From the NCBI RefSeq assembly GCF_900114655.1, contig NZ_FOTT01000004.1, forward strand, positions 1-64,000: a stretch of 64,000 nucleotides of DNA, written 5' to 3'. Position numbers and translations under genes: made by a program. The DNA comes from Candidatus Frackibacter sp. WG13 (lineage in GTDB: Bacteria > Bacillota > Halanaerobiia > Halobacteroidales > Acetohalobiaceae). The number at the start of each line of letters is the position of its first letter. Within the stretch, counting starts at the first letter, position 1. Positions 25,905-35,637 of the stretch are shown one piece after another. Below the pieces are notes generated by a model. It made no database searches and was not told where the DNA came from. It was given only the letters and a program-made list of their open reading frames with translations.

Positions 25905-26195
25905 TTATTCAACTATAGCTAATATATCCTTCTCACTAATTACTAAGTACTCTTCCCCATCAAACTCTATTTCCGTTCCAGCATATTTACCATATACAAC
26001 TTTATCTCCTTCACTCACATCTAACTCTAATCGTTCACCACTATCCAATTTTTTACCCTCTCCTACAGCTACAACTTTACCTTCTTGCGGCTTTTCCTTT
26101 GCACTATCTGGTAGTACAATTCCGCTTTCAGTAGTCTCTTCTTTCGCTTCTAATGCTTGCACAACTACTCGATCACCTAAAGGTTTAATTCCCAT
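25905..26195 (-). CDS. groS: Co-chaperonin GroES (Hsp10)
   Basis: A 96-residue GroES that caps GroEL. It has [11 protein letters not shown] at the N-terminus, a mobile loop around [17 protein letters not shown] and the terminal [16 protein letters not shown] take the ATG at 26195, 7 nt after GGAGG; an in-frame TTG two codons earlier is less suitable. It is the first gene of the groESL operon under HrcA/CIRCE control. Confidence 0.97.
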
Positions 26196-26238
26196 TACCA
26201 AAACCTCCTTATATATTTTTAAAATTAAATATTTGTTA

Positions 26239-26265
26239 TTAGCACTCGCTAACAGTGAGTGCTAA
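26239..26265 (-). promoter_or_regulatory. CIRCE operator (HrcA binding site)
   Basis: TTAGCACTC, nine bases, GAGTGCTAA: an exact match to the CIRCE consensus. It lies 8 nt past the expected transcription start and 44 nt before the groES ATG. HrcA bound here represses groESL until heat stress. Confidence 0.97.
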
Positions 26266-26279
26266 TCATTCCAGTATTA

Positions 26280-26308
26280 ATAATACATAAGACACCACTT
26301 AAAATCAA
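26280..26308 (-). promoter_or_regulatory. groESL promoter
   Basis: On the minus strand: TTGATT at 26308-26303, 17-nt spacer, TATTAT at 26285-26280. The predicted start falls just before the CIRCE operator. Confidence 0.8.
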
Positions 26309-26471
26309 CCTTGATTTATAACCATTTAGCAGTTATAATTATGGTTAGGGGCAATTAAATGCTAATTACTAGTTTATTCTCAAATAATCAATCTTTTTCA
26401 ATCAATCCCTTTCTTGAAAACCTATTGATATAAAATCCAATCTAATAACCCCTTCCATTATTAATATTTCA

Positions 26472-26500
26472 TTGACATTAACTATAAAATCATATATTAT
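26472..26500 (+). promoter_or_regulatory. Promoter of the ACT/DUF711 operon
   Basis: TTGACA at 26472-26477, 17-nt spacer, TATTAT at 26495-26500. It is divergent from the groESL promoter. Confidence 0.82.
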
Positions 26501-26542
26501 TGTTATCAAAATTACATTAAATTAAACGGAGGTGCTTATATA

Positions 26543-26830
26543 ATGCAAGAAGAAAAGAATAATAGAATTGTTGTTACAGTCTTAGGAGAAGATAAAGTAG
26601 GTATCGTAGCTAATATCACCACTGTTTTAGCTGAACACAAAGCTAATATTATTGATATTAGTCAATCTTTATTACAAGATCTATTCTCTATGATTATGTT
26701 AGTTGATATTTCTGAAATAGATATCAGTTTTGAAGAATTACAAAACGAATTACAAGACGCCGGACAAGAATTAGATTTAAAAGTTATGACTCAACATGAA
26801 GATATCTTCCGCTATATGCACCGTGTCTAA
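26543..26830 (+). CDS. ACT domain protein (UPF0237 family)
   Basis: A 95-residue single ACT domain, a fold that usually binds amino acids to regulate enzymes. It opens RIVVTVLGEDKVGIVANITTVL with the glycine-turn DKVGIVA that contacts ligand. GCVR-like sequences share this start. Its partner gene, a DUF711 protein, lies 21 nt downstream; the two occur together widely in Firmicutes. The ligand is unknown. The site GGAGGTG stands 8 nt before the ATG. Confidence 0.9.
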   Translation: MQEEKNNRIVVTVLGEDKVGIVANITTVLAEHKANIIDISQSLLQDLFSMIMLVDISEIDISFEELQNELQDAGQELDLKVMTQHEDIFRYMHRV

Positions 26831-26851
26831 TTATGTAAGGAGGGAAATTTA

Positions 26852-28213
26852 ATGCTCATCAATCCAGATGAAATAATCGAAACTATTAAAATGATTGAAA
26901 TGGAAAACTTTGATATTAGAACAGTTACTATGGGTATCAACCTTCGTGACTGTGCAGATAGTAATATCAAAGTCTTAAATCAGAAGATATATGATAAGAT
27001 AACTACTTATGCTAAAAATTTAGTAGAGACAGTAGAAGAGATGGAAATTAAATATGGAGTACCAATCGTTAATAAACGAATCTCTGTTACTCCCATTTCT
27101 ACTATAGCAGGTACTTGTCAAGAAACAGACTATAGCAGCATTGCTGAAACAATGGACAAGGCTGCTAAAGAAGTAGGAGTTGACTTTATTGGTGGATTCT
27201 CTGGGCTAGTACATAAAGGTTACACTAAAGGAGAAAAAAACTTAATAAAGTCCATTCCTGCTGCTTTAAGCAAAACAGACCGTGTTTGCTCATCTATTAA
27301 TGTAGCCACCACTAATGCTGGTATCAATATGGATGCAGTTTTAGAGATGGGCGATGTAATTAAAAAGACTGCTGATTTAACTAAGGATAATGGCGCCATT
27401 GGTTGTGCTAAATTAGTCGTCTTTGCTAATGTGCCGGAAGATAATCCATTCATGGCCGGAGCTTTCCATGGCGTTGGTGAACCAGAAGCAGTGATTAATG
27501 TAGGAGTTAGTGGACCAGGAGTAGTTAAAAATGTAGTTGATAAGATTCCCGGAGCTGATTTTAGTGAGTTATCGGCCTCTATTAAACGAACTGCTTTTAA
27601 AATTACTCGCATGGGAGAATTAATCGGCAATAGTGTTTCTAAGGAGTTAGACGTTCCGTTTGGCATTGTAGACTTATCATTAGCACCTACACCTGCTATT
27701 GGTGATAGCATAGCTAATATTTTAGAAAGTATGGGCTTAGAAAGATGTGGTACTCATGGTACTACTGATGCTTTAGCTTTATTAAATGACGCAGTTAAAA
27801 AAGGTGGTGCTATGGCATCATCACATGTCGGAGGACTCAGCGGAGCATTCATTCCGGTTAGTGAAGACCAAGGTATGATCGAAGCAGCCGAAGTAGGAGC
27901 TTTAAGTATAAGTAAACTAGAAGCAATGACCTCAGTCTGTTCCGTAGGTTTAGATATGATCGCAGTTCCTGGTTCAACTTCTAAAGAAACCCTCGCTGCT
28001 ATCATAGCTGATGAAATGGCCATCGGTATGATCAATAAGAAGACAACCGCTGTGCGGATTATTCCTGTCCCAGGCAAAGATGTAGGTGACTACGTAGAAT
28101 TTGGTGGCTTATTAGGTAGAGCACCAATTATTGATGTAAACCAATTTAGCTCAGATGACTTTGTAAACCGCGGTGGAAGAATTCCAGCACCTTTACAAGC
28201 ACTAAATAATTAA
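26852..28213 (+). CDS. DUF711 / PFL-like family protein (UPF0210)
   Basis: A 453-residue protein of the UPF0210 (DUF711) family, distantly related to pyruvate formate-lyase-like folds but without a known reaction. Visible conserved stretches are [13 protein letters not shown] near residue 22, [12 protein letters not shown] near 90 and [13 protein letters not shown] near 112. The C-terminal third carries [18 protein letters not shown] and the [17 protein letters not shown] end typical of the family. It is co-transcribed with the upstream ACT protein, which probably regulates it. Confidence 0.92.
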
Positions 28214-28265
28214 AATTTATCTATGTGCTTTCATAATCAATTAATTATGAAGGAGTAAAGTTACC

Positions 28266-28291
28266 ACAACCAGCGTGTCCACGCTGGTTGT
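28266..28291 (+). terminator. Hairpin after the DUF711 gene
   Basis: ACAACCAGCGTG and CACGCTGGTTGT form a perfect 12-bp inverted repeat separated by TC. There is no T-tract after it on either strand. It lies between two convergent genes and could terminate from both sides. Confidence 0.6.
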
Positions 28292-28357
28292 ATATCTATA
28301 TCCTTAATCCAAATTCTATATTAAAATTCCATTCCAATTCAGATTAATTATTCTATT

Positions 28358-28406
28358 ACTCAACCTCAGCCTTAGCCTCAACCTTAGTCTAATCCTCAAC
28401 CTTAAC
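28358..28406 (-). repeat. Degenerate GGTTGAGG-type repeat after a stop codon
   Basis: On the minus strand, straight after the radical SAM gene: GTTAAGGTTGAGGATTAG, ACTAAGGTTGAGGCTAAGG and CTGAGGTTGAGTAATAG. This is the longest example of the repeat also seen at 20594 and 59614. Confidence 0.55.
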
Positions 28407-29759
28407 TTAAACCAAAGCTACCTCACAATCCAGTTCATCCTTTATTACCTCATAAGACTTACCAACCAAATCATTTCCCCAATTATTAAAAGGATTCTCT
28501 GGAATAAAGACTAAATCAGCTTCTAAGATTTCAGCTTGATACTCATAAATAGCATCTAAAAAATCATCTGCTACTAACAGTCCTGCTGCCATAATACTTC
28601 CACCAAAAAACTTGTTCTTAATTGGCAAGATTTTGACTTCTATTTCAGATAGCGATTCATCTATAATCTTTTCAACCCCCAACTTAACTATTCTTTCACC
28701 TAAAACAGACGTTAATAATACCACCTTCTTCACAACTTTACTAGTAATTATCTGTTCTATCTTCTTTATTCGTTTTGAAGAAATATCATAATCTAAAACT
28801 ATTCCCGGTCTATCACCAGATTCTTTTTCTAATGAAATTTCAATGATTTGACCACTACGCTTACACTCTATAACGGCTGTCTTAGCATTTAATAATTTAT
28901 TAAATGCATCCACTCTTGTCTTTACAGTTTCTTGGTTTATTTTTATAATCTCATCACCTTTTTTAAAACCAGATATATCCGCTGGTGAACCAGAAATTAC
29001 CCCCTTTAACTTCACATTCATATCTTCAAGCAAAGGAGGTTCTACCATAATAGGAACTCTATATCTATTATTCAATTCCTTAATATAGTTACTTAGCTCT
29101 TCCCATAATTCTAAATCAAATTGCAATTCAGATGGCGTTAACTTAGTATAACCTGGTAAGAATACCCTTACAGTTTGAGCATGATTACTATCTAAAAAAC
29201 TAATTGTTTTTTCTAACTCATCCCAGCCGCTAATCATAGGCATTGCTACAATACTGCCATGATAAGGAATCTCAAACTTAGCCAACTCTTCTATTCCTTT
29301 TAAAACCTTTTTCCCATTTTGATCTCCCATTATTTTTTTACGCCAAATAGGTTGTGAACTATTTAAAGAAAGGTTTAATTCTATTAAACCCAAATCTTTC
29401 AATACCCTAACATTTTTATTATTTAAATATGACCCATTAGTTGTAATTTGAACTGTAGTTTCAGGAAAGCGCTTACGTAGGTAATTTAAAATAGAATTGA
29501 ATTTTGGATGGGCAAATGGCTCACCTTCTATAATGCGAGTAATAGATTCGCCAATTACAATCTTTCTTTGTGGGTCTAAAAAATCAGCAACTTCCTTTAC
29601 CTCATTTAAACTCTGATGCCCACAATTAAAGACTTCAACCCCTTCTGGATTAAAATAATGACTACAAAAAAGACAATTTAGATTACAAACAGAAGTAATA
29701 GGTAGAATATTACGTTCTTGAGCTGATAGAATGATTAGTTGTTTAGATGAATATTTCAT
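28407..29759 (-). CDS. Radical SAM protein with internal PDZ domain and DUF512-like C-terminus
   Basis: A 450-residue protein of unknown substrate. The radical SAM cluster motif is CNLNCLFC (Cys25, 29, 32), followed by the GEPFAHPKF and TTNGSYL stretches of a normal SAM barrel to about residue 240. A PDZ domain follows (about 250-312, with GVISGSPADISGFKKGDEI). The last ~110 residues include KNKFFGGSIMAAGLLVADDF, recalling the C-terminus of DUF512 proteins, where the order is PDZ, then Fe-S barrel, then DUF512. Here the PDZ lies between the other two. It is downstream of the t6A genes, so a tRNA-related role is possible but unproven. Confidence 0.8.
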   Translation of the reverse strand: MKYSSKQLIILSAQERNILPITSVCNLNCLFCSHYFNPEGVEVFNCGHQSLNEVKEVADFLDPQRKIVIGESITRIIEGEPFAHPKFNSILNYLRKRFPETTVQITTNGSYLNNKNVRVLKDLGLIELNLSLNSSQPIWRKKIMGDQNGKKVLKGIEELAKFEIPYHGSIVAMPMISGWDELEKTISFLDSNHAQTVRVFLPGYTKLTPSELQFDLELWEELSNYIKELNNRYRVPIMVEPPLLEDMNVKLKGVISGSPADISGFKKGDEIIKINQETVKTRVDAFNKLLNAKTAVIECKRSGQIIEISLEKESGDRPGIVLDYDISSKRIKKIEQIITSKVVKKVVLLTSVLGERIVKLGVEKIIDESLSEIEVKILPIKNKFFGGSIMAAGLLVADDFLDAIYEYQAEILEADLVFIPENPFNNWGNDLVGKSYEVIKDELDCEVALV

Positions 29760-29777
29760 TTTATTCTCTACTCTCCT

Positions 29778-30791
29778 TTACCCCAACTGCAAATTAGGTT
29801 CTGCATTCAAGTCATAATCTGTCCGCATACCACTCTTCCAATGGTAGTAACCTACACTAGCAATCATAGCTGCATTATCTGTACATAACTTAGGGGGTGG
29901 GAAATGTAATTCAACTCCTAAATCATACAACTTACTCTCTAGTTCTACTCTTAATTGTCGGTTAGAAGCTACACCTCCGGCTAAAATTACATTCTTAACC
30001 TTAGTCTCTTTAACCGCTTTAATCACTTTAGCAACTAAGATATCCACCACTGCTTGCTGAAAGCTAGCGGCTAAATTAGCCTTATTAATCTCTTCCCCTC
30101 GTTGCTCTTGATTATTAATATAATTTAAAACAGCAGTCTTTAGTCCACTAAAACTAAAGTCATAATTATCAGCATTGATGAGAGGGCGCGGTAAGTCAAT
30201 TGCTTCCTCATCACCTTCCTTAGCTAATTTATCTATAATTGGTCCTCCGGGATACCCCAACTCTAGGACTCTAGCTACTTTATCGAAAGATTCTCCCGCT
30301 GCATCATCTCTAGTTCTACCTAATATCTGATATTCTCCAAATTCAGAGAAATATAATAAATCAGTATGCCCTCCCGAAACGGTTAGACAAACTAAAGGCG
30401 GTTCTAGATCTTCATGAGCAATAAAATTAGAATAGATATGCCCTTCAATATGATTAATAGCTATTAAAGGTATCTGTTGGGCATAAGCTATACCTTTAGC
30501 AGCAGCTATCCCCACTAATAAACCACCGACTAATCCTGGACCATATGTAACTGCCACTGCTGATAAATCTGCAAATTTAACTCCTGCTTCCACCATAGCC
30601 TCTTCAATAACCGGATTCATTAATTCAACATGCTTACGAGAAGCAATTTCAGGCACTACACCACCAAACTTACGGTGCCAATCTATCTGTGAAGCAATAA
30701 TATTTGATAATACATTTCTCCCGTTTTCAACTACTGCTGCTGACGTTTCGTCACATGATGATTCAATCCCTAAAATCAAGTCATTTCCCAT
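29778..30791 (-). CDS. tsaD: tRNA N6-threonylcarbamoyladenosine transferase TsaD
   Basis: TsaD (337 residues) transfers the threonylcarbamoyl group to A37 of ANN-decoding tRNAs. The ASKHA-fold signatures are [14 protein letters not shown], the metal ligands HIEGH near residue 112, and VSGGHTDLL near 135. [15 protein letters not shown] (as [15 protein letters not shown] here) and [12 protein letters not shown] complete the set. It lies with rimI, tsaB and tsaE in the order tsaE-tsaB-rimI-tsaD. Confidence 0.97.
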
Positions 30792-30811
30792 AATATAATC
30801 TAACCCCTTAA

Positions 30812-31294
30812 TTATTTAATCTTTAAAGTCTTCCACATAATCACTGCATCTTCTTTATTATCTTGATAATAGTTCTTCCGGATACCCGCCTCATCAAATC
30901 CATAATCAGTATATAATCTCCGCGCTGACTGATTAGAAACTCTAACTTCTAACGTCACTTTATTAACGCCTTCTTCTACAAGCCGACCGAAAAGAGTTAT
31001 CAATAATTTTTTAGCTACTCCTTGCCGTCGATAATCAGGATTAACCGCTAAAGTAGTAATATGGCTTTCATTTAAAATAATCCAAGCCCCTATATAACCT
31101 ATTACTTCTTGTTCGTTCTTAGCTACAAAGTAATTTGCATAACGATTCTTTGTTATCTCCTTCTTAAACGCATTTCTTGACCAAGGTGAATTAAAAGCTT
31201 CTTTTTCAATAACTAATACCTGGTCTAAATCAGATGTCTTCATATATTCTACATTTAAATCTAAATTATTAGTTTCTTTCAAAACTATCTCCAT
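30812..31294 (-). CDS. rimI: Ribosomal protein S18-alanine N-acetyltransferase RimI
   Basis: A 160-residue GNAT acetyltransferase. The acetyl-CoA loop is [10 protein letters not shown] near residue 98, and [19 protein letters not shown] is characteristic of RimI. It sits between tsaB and tsaD, the usual RimI place. The first 15 residues extend beyond typical RimI proteins, and the true start could be the internal ATG of MKTSDLDQV; the ribosome binding site before the given start is weak. The target may be S18 or other N-termini. Confidence 0.92.
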
Positions 31295-31296
31295 CC

Positions 31297-32010
31297 TTAC
31301 CTATTCTCTAACCTCCGCTCCCAATCAATTTCAGCTTGAGAACGCTTTAAATAATTAGGGTTGACCTTAAAAAGATCATCATCTTCGCCGGCTTTCAACT
31401 TAATAGATCCAATTCTACCTAAGACTCCACCACGAATTATATTATATATACTAGGTAAAAATTGAGCTTGTTTCCCTAACTCACCCTTGATTATTGTACC
31501 GTAGTTATCTGTTGCCTCTCCTACAAAGATAGTCTCCTCATTAAAATCTCGTCCAATTTTTTGAACTAAATCTGTTACAGGAATCATTCTTTCAGAAAGG
31601 ACTTGCTTCTTTAATCCATCTACATTCTCTTTATAGATTCCTGTATAGACTCTTTCTCTTCTAGCATCTATTACAGGACAGATATATTTATCAGTATGTA
31701 CTAAACTATTAGCTAAAACTTCCAAAGTTGAGACACTAACAATTGGAATCTCTACTACCTGCGCTAAGCTTTTAGCTGTAGCAACACCTATTCTAATGCC
31801 TGTAAACGAACCAGGTCCAACTCCAACTGCAATTCCATCTAACTCATTTAATTCTACCTGTGCCTCTTCCATCACACGAACGACCTGAGGCATCAACCGT
31901 TGCGAATGAGTCATCTTCAAATTCAAATTATACTCTGCAATTATCCTTTCATTCTGACATAGACTAACTGCCCCTGTCTTTGTAGAACTATCTAAAGCTA
32001 AAATCAACAT
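31297..32010 (-). CDS. tsaB: t6A biosynthesis dimerisation protein TsaB
   Basis: TsaB (237 residues) is the ASKHA-fold partner that stabilises TsaD and links it to TsaE. It shows LALDSSTKTGAVSL at the N-terminus and VGVGPGSFTGIRIGVATAKSLA near residue 63 (here given by the core GPGSFTGIRIG). It lacks the TsaD metal-binding histidines, as expected. Its start overlaps the tsaE end by 23 nt. Confidence 0.96.
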   Translation of the reverse strand: MLILALDSSTKTGAVSLCQNERIIAEYNLNLKMTHSQRLMPQVVRVMEEAQVELNELDGIAVGVGPGSFTGIRIGVATAKSLAQVVEIPIVSVSTLEVLANSLVHTDKYICPVIDARRERVYTGIYKENVDGLKKQVLSERMIPVTDLVQKIGRDFNEETIFVGEATDNYGTIIKGELGKQAQFLPSIYNIIRGGVLGRIGSIKLKAGEDDDLFKVNPNYLKRSQAEIDWERRLENR

Positions 32011-32461
32011 TCTTCTTCAACTCCGTAACCAACGAAATATACTTATTAGCCTGTGGAATAACCTTAATAGTTCTTGTATTATCATGACCTTTAATTATAA
32101 TATTTAAATAGTTATCGGGCATTAAAGAACCAGCTTTGTCTGGCCACTCAATAATTGTCACTCCTTCTCCATAAAGATATTCTTCAAATCCGATATCATA
32201 TAACTCTTTATAATCAGATACCCGATAAAGATCTATGTGATAAGCAGGCAAACGTCCTTGATATTCGTTAACTAAAGTATAAGTAGGACTAGTTATCTCT
32301 CTTTCTACCCCTAATCCCTTTAATATTCCTTTTGCTAAATATGTCTTACCTGCTCCTAAATCACCTTGAAGACAGATAATATCACCACTATTAAGCACTT
32401 CACCTAATCTCTCACCTAATTCAATTGTCTCCTCTGGAGCCTCAGTCTTTAACTTTAACAT
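31988..32461 (-). CDS. tsaE: t6A biosynthesis ATPase TsaE
   Basis: TsaE (157 residues) is the small P-loop ATPase that resets the TsaBD complex. The Walker A is GDLGAGKTYLAKG near residue 36. SPTYTLVNEYQ and HIDLYR follow, with the IIEWPDKA block near residue 108. I start at the ATG at 32461, 7 nt after GAGGGG; the upstream ATG overlaps that site. It is the first gene of the t6A cluster. Confidence 0.95.
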   Translation of the reverse strand: MLKLKTEAPEETIELGERLGEVLNSGDIICLQGDLGAGKTYLAKGILKGLGVEREITSPTYTLVNEYQGRLPAYHIDLYRVSDYKELYDIGFEEYLYGEGVTIIEWPDKAGSLMPDNYLNIIIKGHDNTRTIKVIPQANKYISLVTELKKNVDFSFR

Positions 32462-32521
32462 ATTTCCACCCCTCTTCATATAAATAAATTAGTAATCAAT
32501 ATCAGTTGTCAGTATCAGTAA

Positions 32522-32658
32522 AGCCCACTAAAAAGTTATCAAACTAAAGCAGTAGTTATCATAAGCTTATGGTCAGCCTTGTTTTTTAGGCTGAGAATAG
32601 CCCACTAAAAAGTTATCAAACTAAAAGCAGTAATTGTCATAGACTTATGATCAGCCTT
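32522..32658. repeat. Two ~60-bp direct repeats between tsaE and the ECF gene
   Basis: The stretch starting AGCCCACTAAAAAGTTATCA (32522-32580) recurs at 32599-32658 with about six differences and one inserted A. The 18-nt spacer holds AGGCTG, which can pair with CAGCCT at the end of copy 1 around a T-rich loop. The array fills most of the gap between two minus-strand genes. Confidence 0.8.
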
Positions 32659-32665
32659 AACCTCA

Positions 32666-33172
32666 TTACCTATTATTATCCAAAACTCTAACTACTAACA
32701 AAACAATAATAACTGCTACAACCACTTCTGGAGGACCGTGAGTAATACCAATCCCTATCGCTCCTGCCAAAGGTAAATAGCCTTTTAAAACTGATAATCC
32801 TAAAACCCCAATAGTATTAGTTAAAGTTCCTACAGTTGCTGCCAACCCAACTGCTAATGAATCTTTAGATACTAATTTATAACTATACGCAGCCAAAATA
32901 CCGATTAAAACCCGAGGTAAAATCCCAATTAACGGATCTGCTACAAAAGGATTTCCTGCTCTCAAAAAGCTGAACACTCCAAAGACTAACCCTACTAAAC
33001 CACCTACCAAAGGGCCTTCTAAGATAGCGCCAATAATAACCGGGATATGCATAATAGTCGCTGCCCCCGCTGGCGTAGGCACCGGCACAAAACCTAAGGG
33101 AGTCATTCCTAGCACAACCGATACTGCACCTAAAATTCCTACTATTGTAATCTTTCGTGTCTCCAATTGCAT
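32666..33172 (-). CDS. ECF transporter S component
   Basis: A 168-residue membrane protein with about six hydrophobic helices. It matches substrate-binding S components of energy-coupling-factor vitamin transporters, with GFVPVPTPAGAATIMHIPVI near residue 27 and the GPLVGGLVGLVFGVFSFL stretch near 53. Related proteins carry pantothenate, folate or other vitamins, but the ligand here cannot be read. No EcfA or EcfT gene is nearby, so it would use a shared module. The ATG at 33172 is 9 nt after GGAGG; the TTG three codons earlier is less suitable. Confidence 0.85.
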   Translation of the reverse strand: MQLETRKITIVGILGAVSVVLGMTPLGFVPVPTPAGAATIMHIPVIIGAILEGPLVGGLVGLVFGVFSFLRAGNPFVADPLIGILPRVLIGILAAYSYKLVSKDSLAVGLAATVGTLTNTIGVLGLSVLKGYLPLAGAIGIGITHGPPEVVVAVIIVLLVVRVLDNNR

Positions 33173-33201
33173 CTTATTCAACCTCCATCAACTAATAAAC
33201 C

Positions 33202-35637
33202 TTACTTAACCTCTTTAACCAAATTCCTAATTTCTTTTAGGACTTCTGCTTTATTCTGTTGAAAATAATCATTATCAAAACGAGAAATTATCTCCTCCAC
33301 TCGCTGATAATTCTGTTTTACACTTTGAATCATACCTAAATAGAAGTAGGCATCACCATAATAAGCATTCTTTTCTAAGGCTGCACGATATTCTTGCATC
33401 GCTAAATTTAGTCTACCTTTACGACGCCATCTATCCCCGTTTGCCTTATATTCTTTACCATATGTCTGATAATTATTTTTATTTTCCTGTAGTCGTTCTA
33501 ATTCGTCCACAACTTTAGTAAGCTTAGTAGTCAACTTACTTAAAGTCGGATCAGGTTTAAATCTTTTAATATATTTAGAATTAATTCTAACTTTATCAAA
33601 TTCCCCAGTAATTAGATGAGCAACTGCTAAATTATATACTGCTCTTAGATCACTAGGATCCTTCTGTTTTACTTTCTTCCATAGCTTAACAGCTGTTGCT
33701 AAGTCCCCATCTCGCAGCTTCAAGACTCCCAGCTTTCTATAAATCCATGGATAATCATGTAATTCAAGAGCATTTTCATAGTTATTAACTGCTAACTGAT
33801 AATTACTCTGCTTTTCATATAATTTTGCCAAATTTGCATATAGCTTAGCAACTACTCTTTCGGTCCAGCTATCTGCTGAATCGCCAAACTCTTTTATCCC
33901 TTGTTGGTAAGTAGCTACAGCTAGATTATCTAATTTATAATTAGTTAATAATTGTCCTAATTCAAGATAATCATTAACCTTTAAATCATCGACTTCCAAA
34001 ATTCCACCCCACACTTTAAGGGCTTCATCCTTATCTTTTAATGCCCAATATGCTTTACCTAGCTTCACCTTTAAATTAAATTGTTTAGGTTTTAACTTTA
34101 ATGCTGATTTATAATACTTTACAGCAGCCTCATAATTCTGCCAACGATAATAGAAATCAGCTATTTCTTCATAGTTCAACCAATTTGGCTCTAAGTTAAT
34201 AGCTTGCTTATATAATTGCTCTGCTAATTGATACTCTTTCATCTTCTCATAAGACTTAGCTAGCTTTATATAACCCCAAGTATTTTTAGGCTCAACCTGA
34301 ATAGCCTGTTGATATCTAAGAGTAGCCTGCATATACTTCCCAGCATCAAAATATAAATTTCCAGAGTAAATTAGATATTCTGGCTTTTTAGGAGCTAAAG
34401 CAATTAGCTTATCTAGAATATTTTGTGCGTTATTAAGCATTGCAGCAGTAATAGAAGAACGACGATATGTCCAAAATAACCTTTCCAAATACTCTTCTCT
34501 AGTAGGCTTCAAACTAACAGCTGTTTCAAAAGCATCTCGCGCTGCTTCTAAATTATTTAATTGTAAATTTAGCTCTCCTAAAGTAAAATGCAATTCACCA
34601 TTTTGATAATCAATAATTAAAGCATCTTCAATTGCCTTTATAGCTTTTCTATACTTACCTTGCCCACGATAAATTTCAGCTAATTTTTGATAATACTTCA
34701 CTTTCTTATCAATCTTAATTGCTTCTTTTAAAGTCTCGATTGCTTTTTCAATATCTAAGATTTTATAATATAACTTAGATAAAAGGTATCTGCTTTCATC
34801 ATCCTTCGGATTATTATTAACCTTCTTTTCTAATTTTACTATCTCTCGCCTAGCTTGTGGCGCAAAACCTACAGCAAAATCATTATAATTCAGGCCACTA
34901 TTTAACACCCAATTTTGATAAGTAATCAATAAAATTTTTCTTCCTTGATTATCTTTAACTTCGATTAAGTTAGGTAGCAAAATATTATCAACTAACTCTT
35001 GATAGTCATTATAATTTATTGTAGCTACTAACTGTTTATTACTATTAAATATTTCTATCTTCTTAATAATTAATTCTTCTTGATCTACCCACAAAATCTG
35101 TCTAGTAAATAAATTATTTAACTCTAATAAGTACATAGGATTATTATTTAGATTAGCTTCACCAATTAACTTTAAAGTATAAAGATCCTCTAAATTTGCT
35201 AATGGTTTTAAGTAGTCTCGTTGACCATTCAAAGGAAGAGCTGTCTGTAATAACGAATAATCTGGCGGTAGATAGATCCATGGTAAACTATTCAATAACC
35301 TACCTACTTCAGTTCCTTCAAGTTTATTAAAATTATATGAATTATCAATTAAAGAACGTTGTTGATTCTTCATTATATTCGCCTGATAAGCTATCTTCTT
35401 ATCTTTATTTAAAATAACTTTAGAAATTAAAGAACCTTTAAAATCATTAATCTGAGCAAAATTATCTGTAATCGCTTTAATAATTTCTTTAGCACTCTTA
35501 TCCCCTTCAGACATCTGATATGGAAGATCGATCCCTTGACCTAACCCTCTTTCTTTCGAAGTTTGTGCTGCCGACGGCAAATTAATTGCTACACACAATA
35601 CTATAATAAAAATTGTAACCTTTAACTTCTTCTGCAA
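33202..35637 (-). CDS. Secreted protein: LolA-like lipoprotein-sorting domain plus long TPR array
   Basis: An 811-residue exported protein. A signal peptide (KKLKVTIFIIVLCVAINL, cleaved near PSAAQ) is followed by a domain of about 200 residues resembling LolA-type lipoprotein-sorting proteins (KEIIKAITDNFAQINDFKG, and later IEVKDNQGRKILLITYQNW). From about residue 265 to the end there are at least twelve tetratricopeptide repeats, for example YQKLAEIYRGQGKYRKAIKA and YIKLAKSYEKMKEYQLAEQL. It could handle or sort lipoproteins between membranes of a diderm Firmicute. The likely start is the TTG at 35637, 8 nt after AAGGAAGG. Confidence 0.78.
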   Translation of the reverse strand: MQKKLKVTIFIIVLCVAINLPSAAQTSKERGLGQGIDLPYQMSEGDKSAKEIIKAITDNFAQINDFKGSLISKVILNKDKKIAYQANIMKNQQRSLIDNSYNFNKLEGTEVGRLLNSLPWIYLPPDYSLLQTALPLNGQRDYLKPLANLEDLYTLKLIGEANLNNNPMYLLELNNLFTRQILWVDQEELIIKKIEIFNSNKQLVATINYNDYQELVDNILLPNLIEVKDNQGRKILLITYQNWVLNSGLNYNDFAVGFAPQARREIVKLEKKVNNNPKDDESRYLLSKLYYKILDIEKAIETLKEAIKIDKKVKYYQKLAEIYRGQGKYRKAIKAIEDALIIDYQNGELHFTLGELNLQLNNLEAARDAFETAVSLKPTREEYLERLFWTYRRSSITAAMLNNAQNILDKLIALAPKKPEYLIYSGNLYFDAGKYMQATLRYQQAIQVEPKNTWGYIKLAKSYEKMKEYQLAEQLYKQAINLEPNWLNYEEIADFYYRWQNYEAAVKYYKSALKLKPKQFNLKVKLGKAYWALKDKDEALKVWGGILEVDDLKVNDYLELGQLLTNYKLDNLAVATYQQGIKEFGDSADSWTERVVAKLYANLAKLYEKQSNYQLAVNNYENALELHDYPWIYRKLGVLKLRDGDLATAVKLWKKVKQKDPSDLRAVYNLAVAHLITGEFDKVRINSKYIKRFKPDPTLSKLTTKLTKVVDELERLQENKNNYQTYGKEYKANGDRWRRKGRLNLAMQEYRAALEKNAYYGDAYFYLGMIQSVKQNYQRVEEIISRFDNDYFQQNKAEVLKEIRNLVKEVK

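Follow-up and report, generated by a model that had tools for sequence, protein, structure and literature searches.

A radical SAM-PDZ-DUF512 protein is encoded immediately downstream of tsaD, whose product serves the universal tRNA modification t6A, and it represents a widespread family. We propose, with the chances evenly balanced, that it acts at the TsaD/t6A step as a class 2 cobalamin-dependent radical SAM methylase, as predicted from sequence. For about 6,000 DUF512 proteins the cofactor is known and the substrate is not (PMC11659888), and a 2025 review, which puts the DUF512 proteins in one class with Mmp10 (class 2 of the cobalamin-dependent radical SAM enzymes), calls the DUF512 reactions unknown and poses them as a question (PMC13331322). 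The genome context described here ties a DUF512-type family to one tRNA-modifying enzyme, so that this open question becomes testable, and the tsaD linkage makes the enzyme a specific candidate for some undescribed step tied to t6A modification. In the open-licence PMC literature we found no paper on the radical SAM-PDZ-DUF512 order or on a tsaD link of such an enzyme.

In the window (the whole 64,000-nucleotide stretch analyzed) the gene is one open frame of 450 amino acids on the minus strand, with its ATG at 29759 and its stop codon ending at 28407, exactly where the sequence-only reading had put it. That reading had also placed it next to t6A genes, and tsaD, a rimI-like gene, tsaB and tsaE do lie directly upstream on the same strand. 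The gene, its domains and its neighborhood are as follows.

28407..29759, minus strand: radical SAM-PDZ-DUF512 gene, stop codon included (Pfam and AlphaFold2 model)
29025..29717, minus strand: radical SAM domain, residues about 15-245 (Pfam, model)
28785..29024, minus strand: PDZ domain, residues about 246-325, with an invariant G319 at the expected carboxylate-binding loop (Pfam, alignment)
28410..28784, minus strand: predicted DUF512-type cobalamin-binding domain, residues 326-450 (Pfam, structure matches)
29778..30791, minus strand: tsaD (PF00814, E 3.3e-101), 18 bp upstream of the radical SAM-PDZ-DUF512 gene
30812..31294, minus strand: rimI-like GNAT acetyltransferase (Pfam; the rimI name is given by position)
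31297..32010, minus strand: tsaB, a short TsaD-family gene (PF00814, E 2.2e-31)
31988..32479, minus strand: tsaE (PF02367, E 1.4e-42)
28265..28292, minus strand: possible terminator hairpin where two converging genes end (28230-28310 folds at -30.4 kcal/mol, z -6.25)

The 18-bp gap between tsaD and the ATG contains AGGAGA. A DUF711 gene and an ACT gene lie downstream and converge on the radical SAM-PDZ-DUF512 gene, and between its end and that of the DUF711 gene stands the strong hairpin, with a 12-bp stem, which is perhaps a shared terminator, though without a clear T run after the stem. Structured RNA was sought in 26000-33500 with no Rfam match, and a scan for sigma-70 promoters inside the operon gave as many sites as in shuffles.

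The domain order had been read as a radical SAM barrel with a CX3CX2C motif, a PDZ domain and a DUF512-like end. The Pfam domain scan upholds this order, which is conserved in relatives, and the motif is C25-C29-C32 in CNLNCLFC. Radical_SAM matches residues 20-189 (E 6.8e-20, 72.3 bits, cut-off 29.5) and DUF512 matches residues 338-446 (E 5.4e-10, 39.3 bits, cut-off 25), the latter over profile positions 93-196 of 202, that is, the C-terminal half only; FFGGSIMAAGLLVADDF, quoted earlier from this end of the protein, was found at residues 384-400. PDZ_2 at residues 251-301 scores 27.0 bits, equal to its cut-off of 27, and PDZ_6 and PDZ fall slightly under their own cut-offs. When 30 aligned relatives were scanned one by one, Radical_SAM and DUF512 were each present in 30/30, and PDZ_6 and PDZ_2 each in 27/30 at E <= 0.01; hence the PDZ match is not due to chance, and chance domain matching as a whole was rejected on these counts. 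No named NCBIfam radical SAM family scored above its cut-off among the 25 of 61 matches listed, of which MoaA was the best (59.3 bits, cut-off 284).

A full-length AlphaFold2 model built from 30 sequences reached a mean pLDDT of 90.4 and a pTM of 0.90. The two DUF512 structures available for comparison, 9cg1 (csDUF512) and 9cg2 (pfDUF512), were solved by Wang et al. 2024 (PMC11659888). The whole model is nearest to 9cg2 (Z 24.1, 3.4 Å, 306 aligned residues), followed by Mmp10 (7qbs_A; Z 21.5, 2.7 Å, 313 aligned) and 9cg1 (Z 17.9, 4.1 Å, 318 aligned), and Foldseek also returned 9cg2, 9cg1 and Mmp10 on top. Folded alone, the C-terminal 125 residues (pLDDT 91.3) matched the two solved DUF512 proteins best, by a modest margin (9cg1 Z 11.5, 9cg2 Z 10.6, next 9.0), and in Foldseek 9cg1 was their sole match at E <= 0.001. 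The tail that had been called DUF512-like is thus similar to DUF512 by structure as well as by a profile match that passes the Pfam cut-off. Barrel strands in the model run at 67-69, 103-107, 126-131, 166-171, 197-200 and 237-240, with bridges at 18 and 22, and this secondary structure suggests that the radical SAM barrel may be complete.

The same genome (2.77 Mb) encodes two DUF512 proteins, and the second (G000:C30) bears out the ordinary order of PDZ, Fe-S region and DUF512 from which the sequence-only reading had set the protein apart: Pfam places PDZ at 14-52, Radical_SAM_2 at 75-225 and DUF512, over nearly the full profile, at 228-421. At least two DUF512 matches were found in 58 of the 61 genomes searched, and one in G007, G054 and G059. 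Elsewhere, an ordinary DUF512 protein of Clostridioides difficile stands in a table of genes classed essential (PMC12548448), and PDZ-radical SAM proteins are placed near der/engA and gpsA (PMC6411480). The N-terminal PDZ, the DDD motif and the full-length DUF512 profile match of ordinary PDZ-radical SAM-DUF512 proteins are all absent from the protein studied here. According to Wang et al., DUF512 proteins that carry a PDZ domain show high conservation of DDD (PMC11659888); the motif occurs in 0/30 of the radical SAM-PDZ-DUF512 relatives versus 25/25 ordinary paralogues, and its absence despite the PDZ domain therefore marks a separate branch.

Profile comparison with the ordinary family aligned residues 114-450 with 138-429 (99.7%, E 1.3e-26), so that the C-terminal half of the radical SAM domain and the cobalamin domain are collinear, with the PDZ domain replacing the segment between. 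The PDZ profile itself matches both the DUF512 PDZ (98.4%, E 9e-15) and, a little less well, the RseP PDZ (97.5%, E 8.9e-12). The earlier description of the protein as permuted is fair for its domain order; as history it goes beyond the structure and profiles, which a PDZ insertion fits equally. We give an insertion of the PDZ domain, separating the radical SAM domain from the cobalamin domain, a probability no lower than that of a permutation, because the model is nearer to the PDZ-less pfDUF512 and Mmp10, the barrel seems complete and the PDZ domain matches both sources.

DUF512 is a cobalamin-binding domain: Wang et al. 2024 tested four DUF512 proteins, all of which bind cobalamin, form methylcobalamin from SAM and also release some 5'-deoxyadenosine (PMC11659888). 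The similarity claimed for the tail stood, and its reading was incomplete on the chemistry, which this cobalamin-binding role supplies. Given that role, the protein is most likely, by prediction, a class 2 cobalamin-dependent radical SAM enzyme. The predicted cofactor part, cobalamin plus radical SAM, is well supported by homology and very probably correct, and methylation is the likely reaction. Class 2 enzymes have a radical SAM domain with CX3CX2C followed by an Mmp10/DUF512-type cobalamin-binding domain; both domains are found here in this order, with the PDZ domain between. CobS is encoded in the same genome and was found in 29 of the 41 genomes searched, this one included; it was not found in 12 of the 41, genomes that mostly carry the radical SAM-PDZ-DUF512 gene.

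Residues that align with cofactor sites of such enzymes are listed here with their conservation among the 30 aligned relatives.

29658..29687, minus strand: cluster loop CNLNCLFCSH (C25, C29, C32, S33, H34), each of the five residues in 30/30
29517..29528, minus strand: E78-G79-[E/D]80-P81, by alignment in place of the SAM-binding GGE/GGD motif; EG[ED]P in 30/30
28707..28712, minus strand: T350-S351, with T350 aligned with csDUF512 Thr323; S351 in 30/30
28578..28580, minus strand: L394, aligned with csDUF512 L366 and pfDUF512 L286, the lower-axial Leu of each; 30/30

Thr323 of csDUF512 hydrogen-bonds the B12 tail, dimethylbenzimidazole (PMC11659888), and the aligned residue 350 is T in 23, S in 2 and another residue in 5 of the 30 relatives. 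From the alignment, L394 would take the lower-axial Leu position of B12, in a model that carries no cofactor; the chain numbering of 9cg2 runs one ahead of that in the paper, as judged from its cysteines. One position departs from the solved enzymes. S33 stands at the place of csDUF512 F95, pfDUF512 Y47 and Mmp10 Y23 in 30/30 relatives, which leaves no aromatic side chain at that point between cluster and B12, so the geometry or the reaction may differ; a hydrophobic residue there is a trait of the three solved members and lies outside the class 2 definition given in PMC13331322. Ordinary paralogues have Phe after the third Cys in 25/25 examined. Across the window and 80 named loci (n = 81) the third Cys is followed by SH in 71 and by SN in 9, and in 1 neither pair was found; these counts lean to SH because the named-locus scan favored FCSH patterns.

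The family is widely distributed. A match at E <= 1e-30 occurs in 93 of 398 sampled genomes of the phylum, and with the protein as query 59 of 61 genomes match at E <= 6.1e-62, the G024 copy having an internal TGA; among these 61, G059 has no comparable match and G007 has only fragments with stops. The G007 copy (G007:C4:297992-298786) is a broken gene with several stops in a close relative. A scan of named-genome contigs with the single protein sequence found no relatives, and a scan with the alignment found 178, of which the best 80 were used (FCSH-biased patterns); these include Halanaerobiales, Pelotomaculum, Desulfotruncus and Moorella. The records are mostly Bacillota, and two MAGs labelled Sumerlaeota and Actinobacteria may be misassigned. 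We also observed a second radical SAM-PDZ-DUF512-like group, of about 530-570 amino acids, with an N-terminal extension and the loop FCYLKGNP or CYEKKNP, with the following members.

L170:6003-7706: second-group member, DUF512 absent
L171:4724-6352: second-group member, DUF512 below cut-off
L169:3639-5219: second-group member

A fusion reading of the one very long open frame (G434, L162) was rejected, since a masked stretch had been read through; the other long frames examined are N-terminal extensions or longer linkers.

The linkage to tsaD is conserved across this distribution. Among the window and the 80 named loci (the best of 178), 71 of 81 have tsaD upstream in the same orientation; the remaining ten have 0.5-8 kb of upstream DNA. 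tsaD is the -1 gene in 49/81, a count affected by spurious small frames from the simple frame caller, and the commonest +1 family reaches 11/79. No tsaB was seen in the available flank, short in a few cases, of 35 of the 71 tsaD-linked loci. A neighborhood-blind sample was also drawn, comprising 75 of the 93 phylum matches, in each of which tsaD was searched (16 already counted close relatives, one contig-split gene and one second-group member were left out). This survey again found the linkage conserved: of the 72 genomes with a tsaD hit, 58 have tsaD no more than 3.5 kb upstream in the same orientation, and the others have it 4-7 kb off (3), far away (3) or on another contig (8); the linkage appears in 29 of 34 families. 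In seven sampled Moorella-type genomes (f24 g43) the gene and tsaD are widely separated or sit on different contigs.

Some features of these loci were noted in passing. The Moorella-type L165-L168 (f24 g43), whose copies are likewise distant from tsaD or on a different contig, have a longer stretch between the PDZ and cobalamin domains. Where tsaD and the radical SAM gene are not adjacent, there is often one gene between them, by eye Lgt-like or Mpl/MurC-like (L098, L104, L110; L094, L102, L106 and others), without a common theme. In L115, L126 and L138 a set resembling EtfB/EtfA, an FAD oxidoreductase and a ferredoxin stands in that place (by eye); this electron-transfer flavoprotein-like set is perhaps a source of reducing power.

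In the proposed mechanism, C25, C29 and C32 would hold a [4Fe-4S] cluster and SAM would be cleaved to a 5'-deoxyadenosyl radical, the C-terminal domain would hold base-off B12 over L394, with a second SAM recharging the cofactor, and the PDZ domain between the two would recruit or clamp a partner. The target could be t6A37-tRNA, a threonine precursor, or a protein that belongs to the TsaD complex or system; the sequence-only reading rightly named no substrate. Predicted pI values of 81 proteins have a neutral median (6.7) and give no support for tRNA binding. Operon neighborhood by itself is no proof of a common pathway, and we regard a link of the enzyme to t6A, argued from gene order, as somewhat probable.

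The methyl acceptor might instead be a protein whose C-terminus the PDZ domain grips, perhaps a translation factor or a member of the TsaD complex. PDZ domains bind C-termini and the loop glycine G319 is invariant; substrate recognition was suggested for the csDUF512 PDZ by Wang et al. (PMC11659888), and Mmp10, the closest solved class member of known substrate, acts on a protein. However, TsaD C-termini show no conserved tail in the 71 linked loci, on which ground TsaD was rejected as the PDZ ligand, and no other constant protein partner was seen in the neighborhood of the surveyed loci; we rate protein methylation as unlikely. B12 could also be used for a reaction other than methylation, such as ring contraction or coupling, which we judge very improbable: S33-H34 stands where other members have an aromatic side chain between cluster and B12, and OxsB is an example of a B12 radical SAM enzyme that does not methylate (PMC11659888), but the lower-axial Leu environment is kept, which Wang et al. 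take as favoring radical methylation (PMC11659888). Finally, the tsaD linkage could reflect inherited gene order or co-expression only, around an unrelated B12-radical function. The synteny that links the tsaD region to groES/groEL in many of the genomes and the loss of linkage in Moorella-type genomes speak for this. Yet the outer and downstream neighbors turn over while tsaD stays (+1 at most 11/79, tsaD at -1 in 49/81, 29/34 families), and the ordinary DUF512 paralogue lies at least 338 kb from the radical SAM-PDZ-DUF512 gene in 7/7 one-contig genomes; inherited order is, in our estimate, an explanation of low probability.

Methylation at the TsaD/t6A step would take a specific form if its product were hn6A, which is t6A with one extra carbon on the threonyl chain and carries hydroxynorvaline. 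In many anaerobic Bacillota the enzyme would then C-methylate the t6A37 threonyl side chain to give hn6A or an undescribed C-methylated t6A, the methyl being added to a radical on the unactivated gamma-methyl of the t6A threonyl, of threonine or of its carbamoyl-AMP, and threonyl becoming 3-hydroxynorvalyl. We hold this to be quite improbable. The biosynthetic origin of hn6A is called unknown in PMC10702137, Mmp10 and TokK methylate sp3 carbons (PMC11659888), and a candidate B12 radical methylase is here strongly linked to tsaD. On the other side, PF04459 (DUF512) has no match in the hn6A-positive Thermotoga maritima, Methanocaldococcus jannaschii and Methanosarcina acetivorans (PMC6313347, PMC10702137), in a search that a very divergent relative could escape; at least these three therefore make hn6A otherwise. 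T. maritima and T. commune are the bacteria named as having hn6A in PMC6313347, and we found no hn6A report for an organism carrying the radical SAM-PDZ-DUF512 gene. Bacterial t6A enzymes can also use hydroxynorvaline when it is supplied (PMC10702137, PMC11648230), so a route through the free amino acid is possible. If true, the hn6A reading would fill in the missing biosynthetic step for this nucleoside within one lineage, and a DUF512 enzyme would for the first time have an assigned substrate.

Among known systems, pfDUF512 of Pyrococcus furiosus (9cg2) is the best fold match and shares the radical SAM domain followed by the DUF512 cobalamin domain, a similar cluster loop (FC..xNPPE) and the lower-axial Leu; it differs in being archaeal, in lacking a PDZ domain, in its (beta-alpha)5 barrel and in Tyr47 where the radical SAM-PDZ-DUF512 protein has Ser. 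csDUF512 (9cg1) and the ordinary paralogues have the same three domain types, with a homologous C-terminal radical SAM half and cobalamin domain, but differ in their N-terminal PDZ, the DDD motif and Phe after the third Cys, and in the seven one-contig genomes the paralogues are not near tsaD. In csDUF512 the PDZ domain completes a degenerate barrel, and Mmp10 stands outside DUF512 in the Pfam grouping (PMC11659888). A role of MTTase on t6A is described in PMC10702137. Mmp10 (methanogenesis marker 10, 7qbs) shares a full barrel followed by a C-terminal cobalamin domain, and differs in being archaeal, in having no PDZ domain and in methylating an Arg of methyl-coenzyme M reductase. MtaB and TrmO act on t6A37; they belong to other families with other chemistry, and since the same genome encodes TrmO and an MtaB-type enzyme at other loci, the role of the radical SAM-PDZ-DUF512 protein is not simply theirs.
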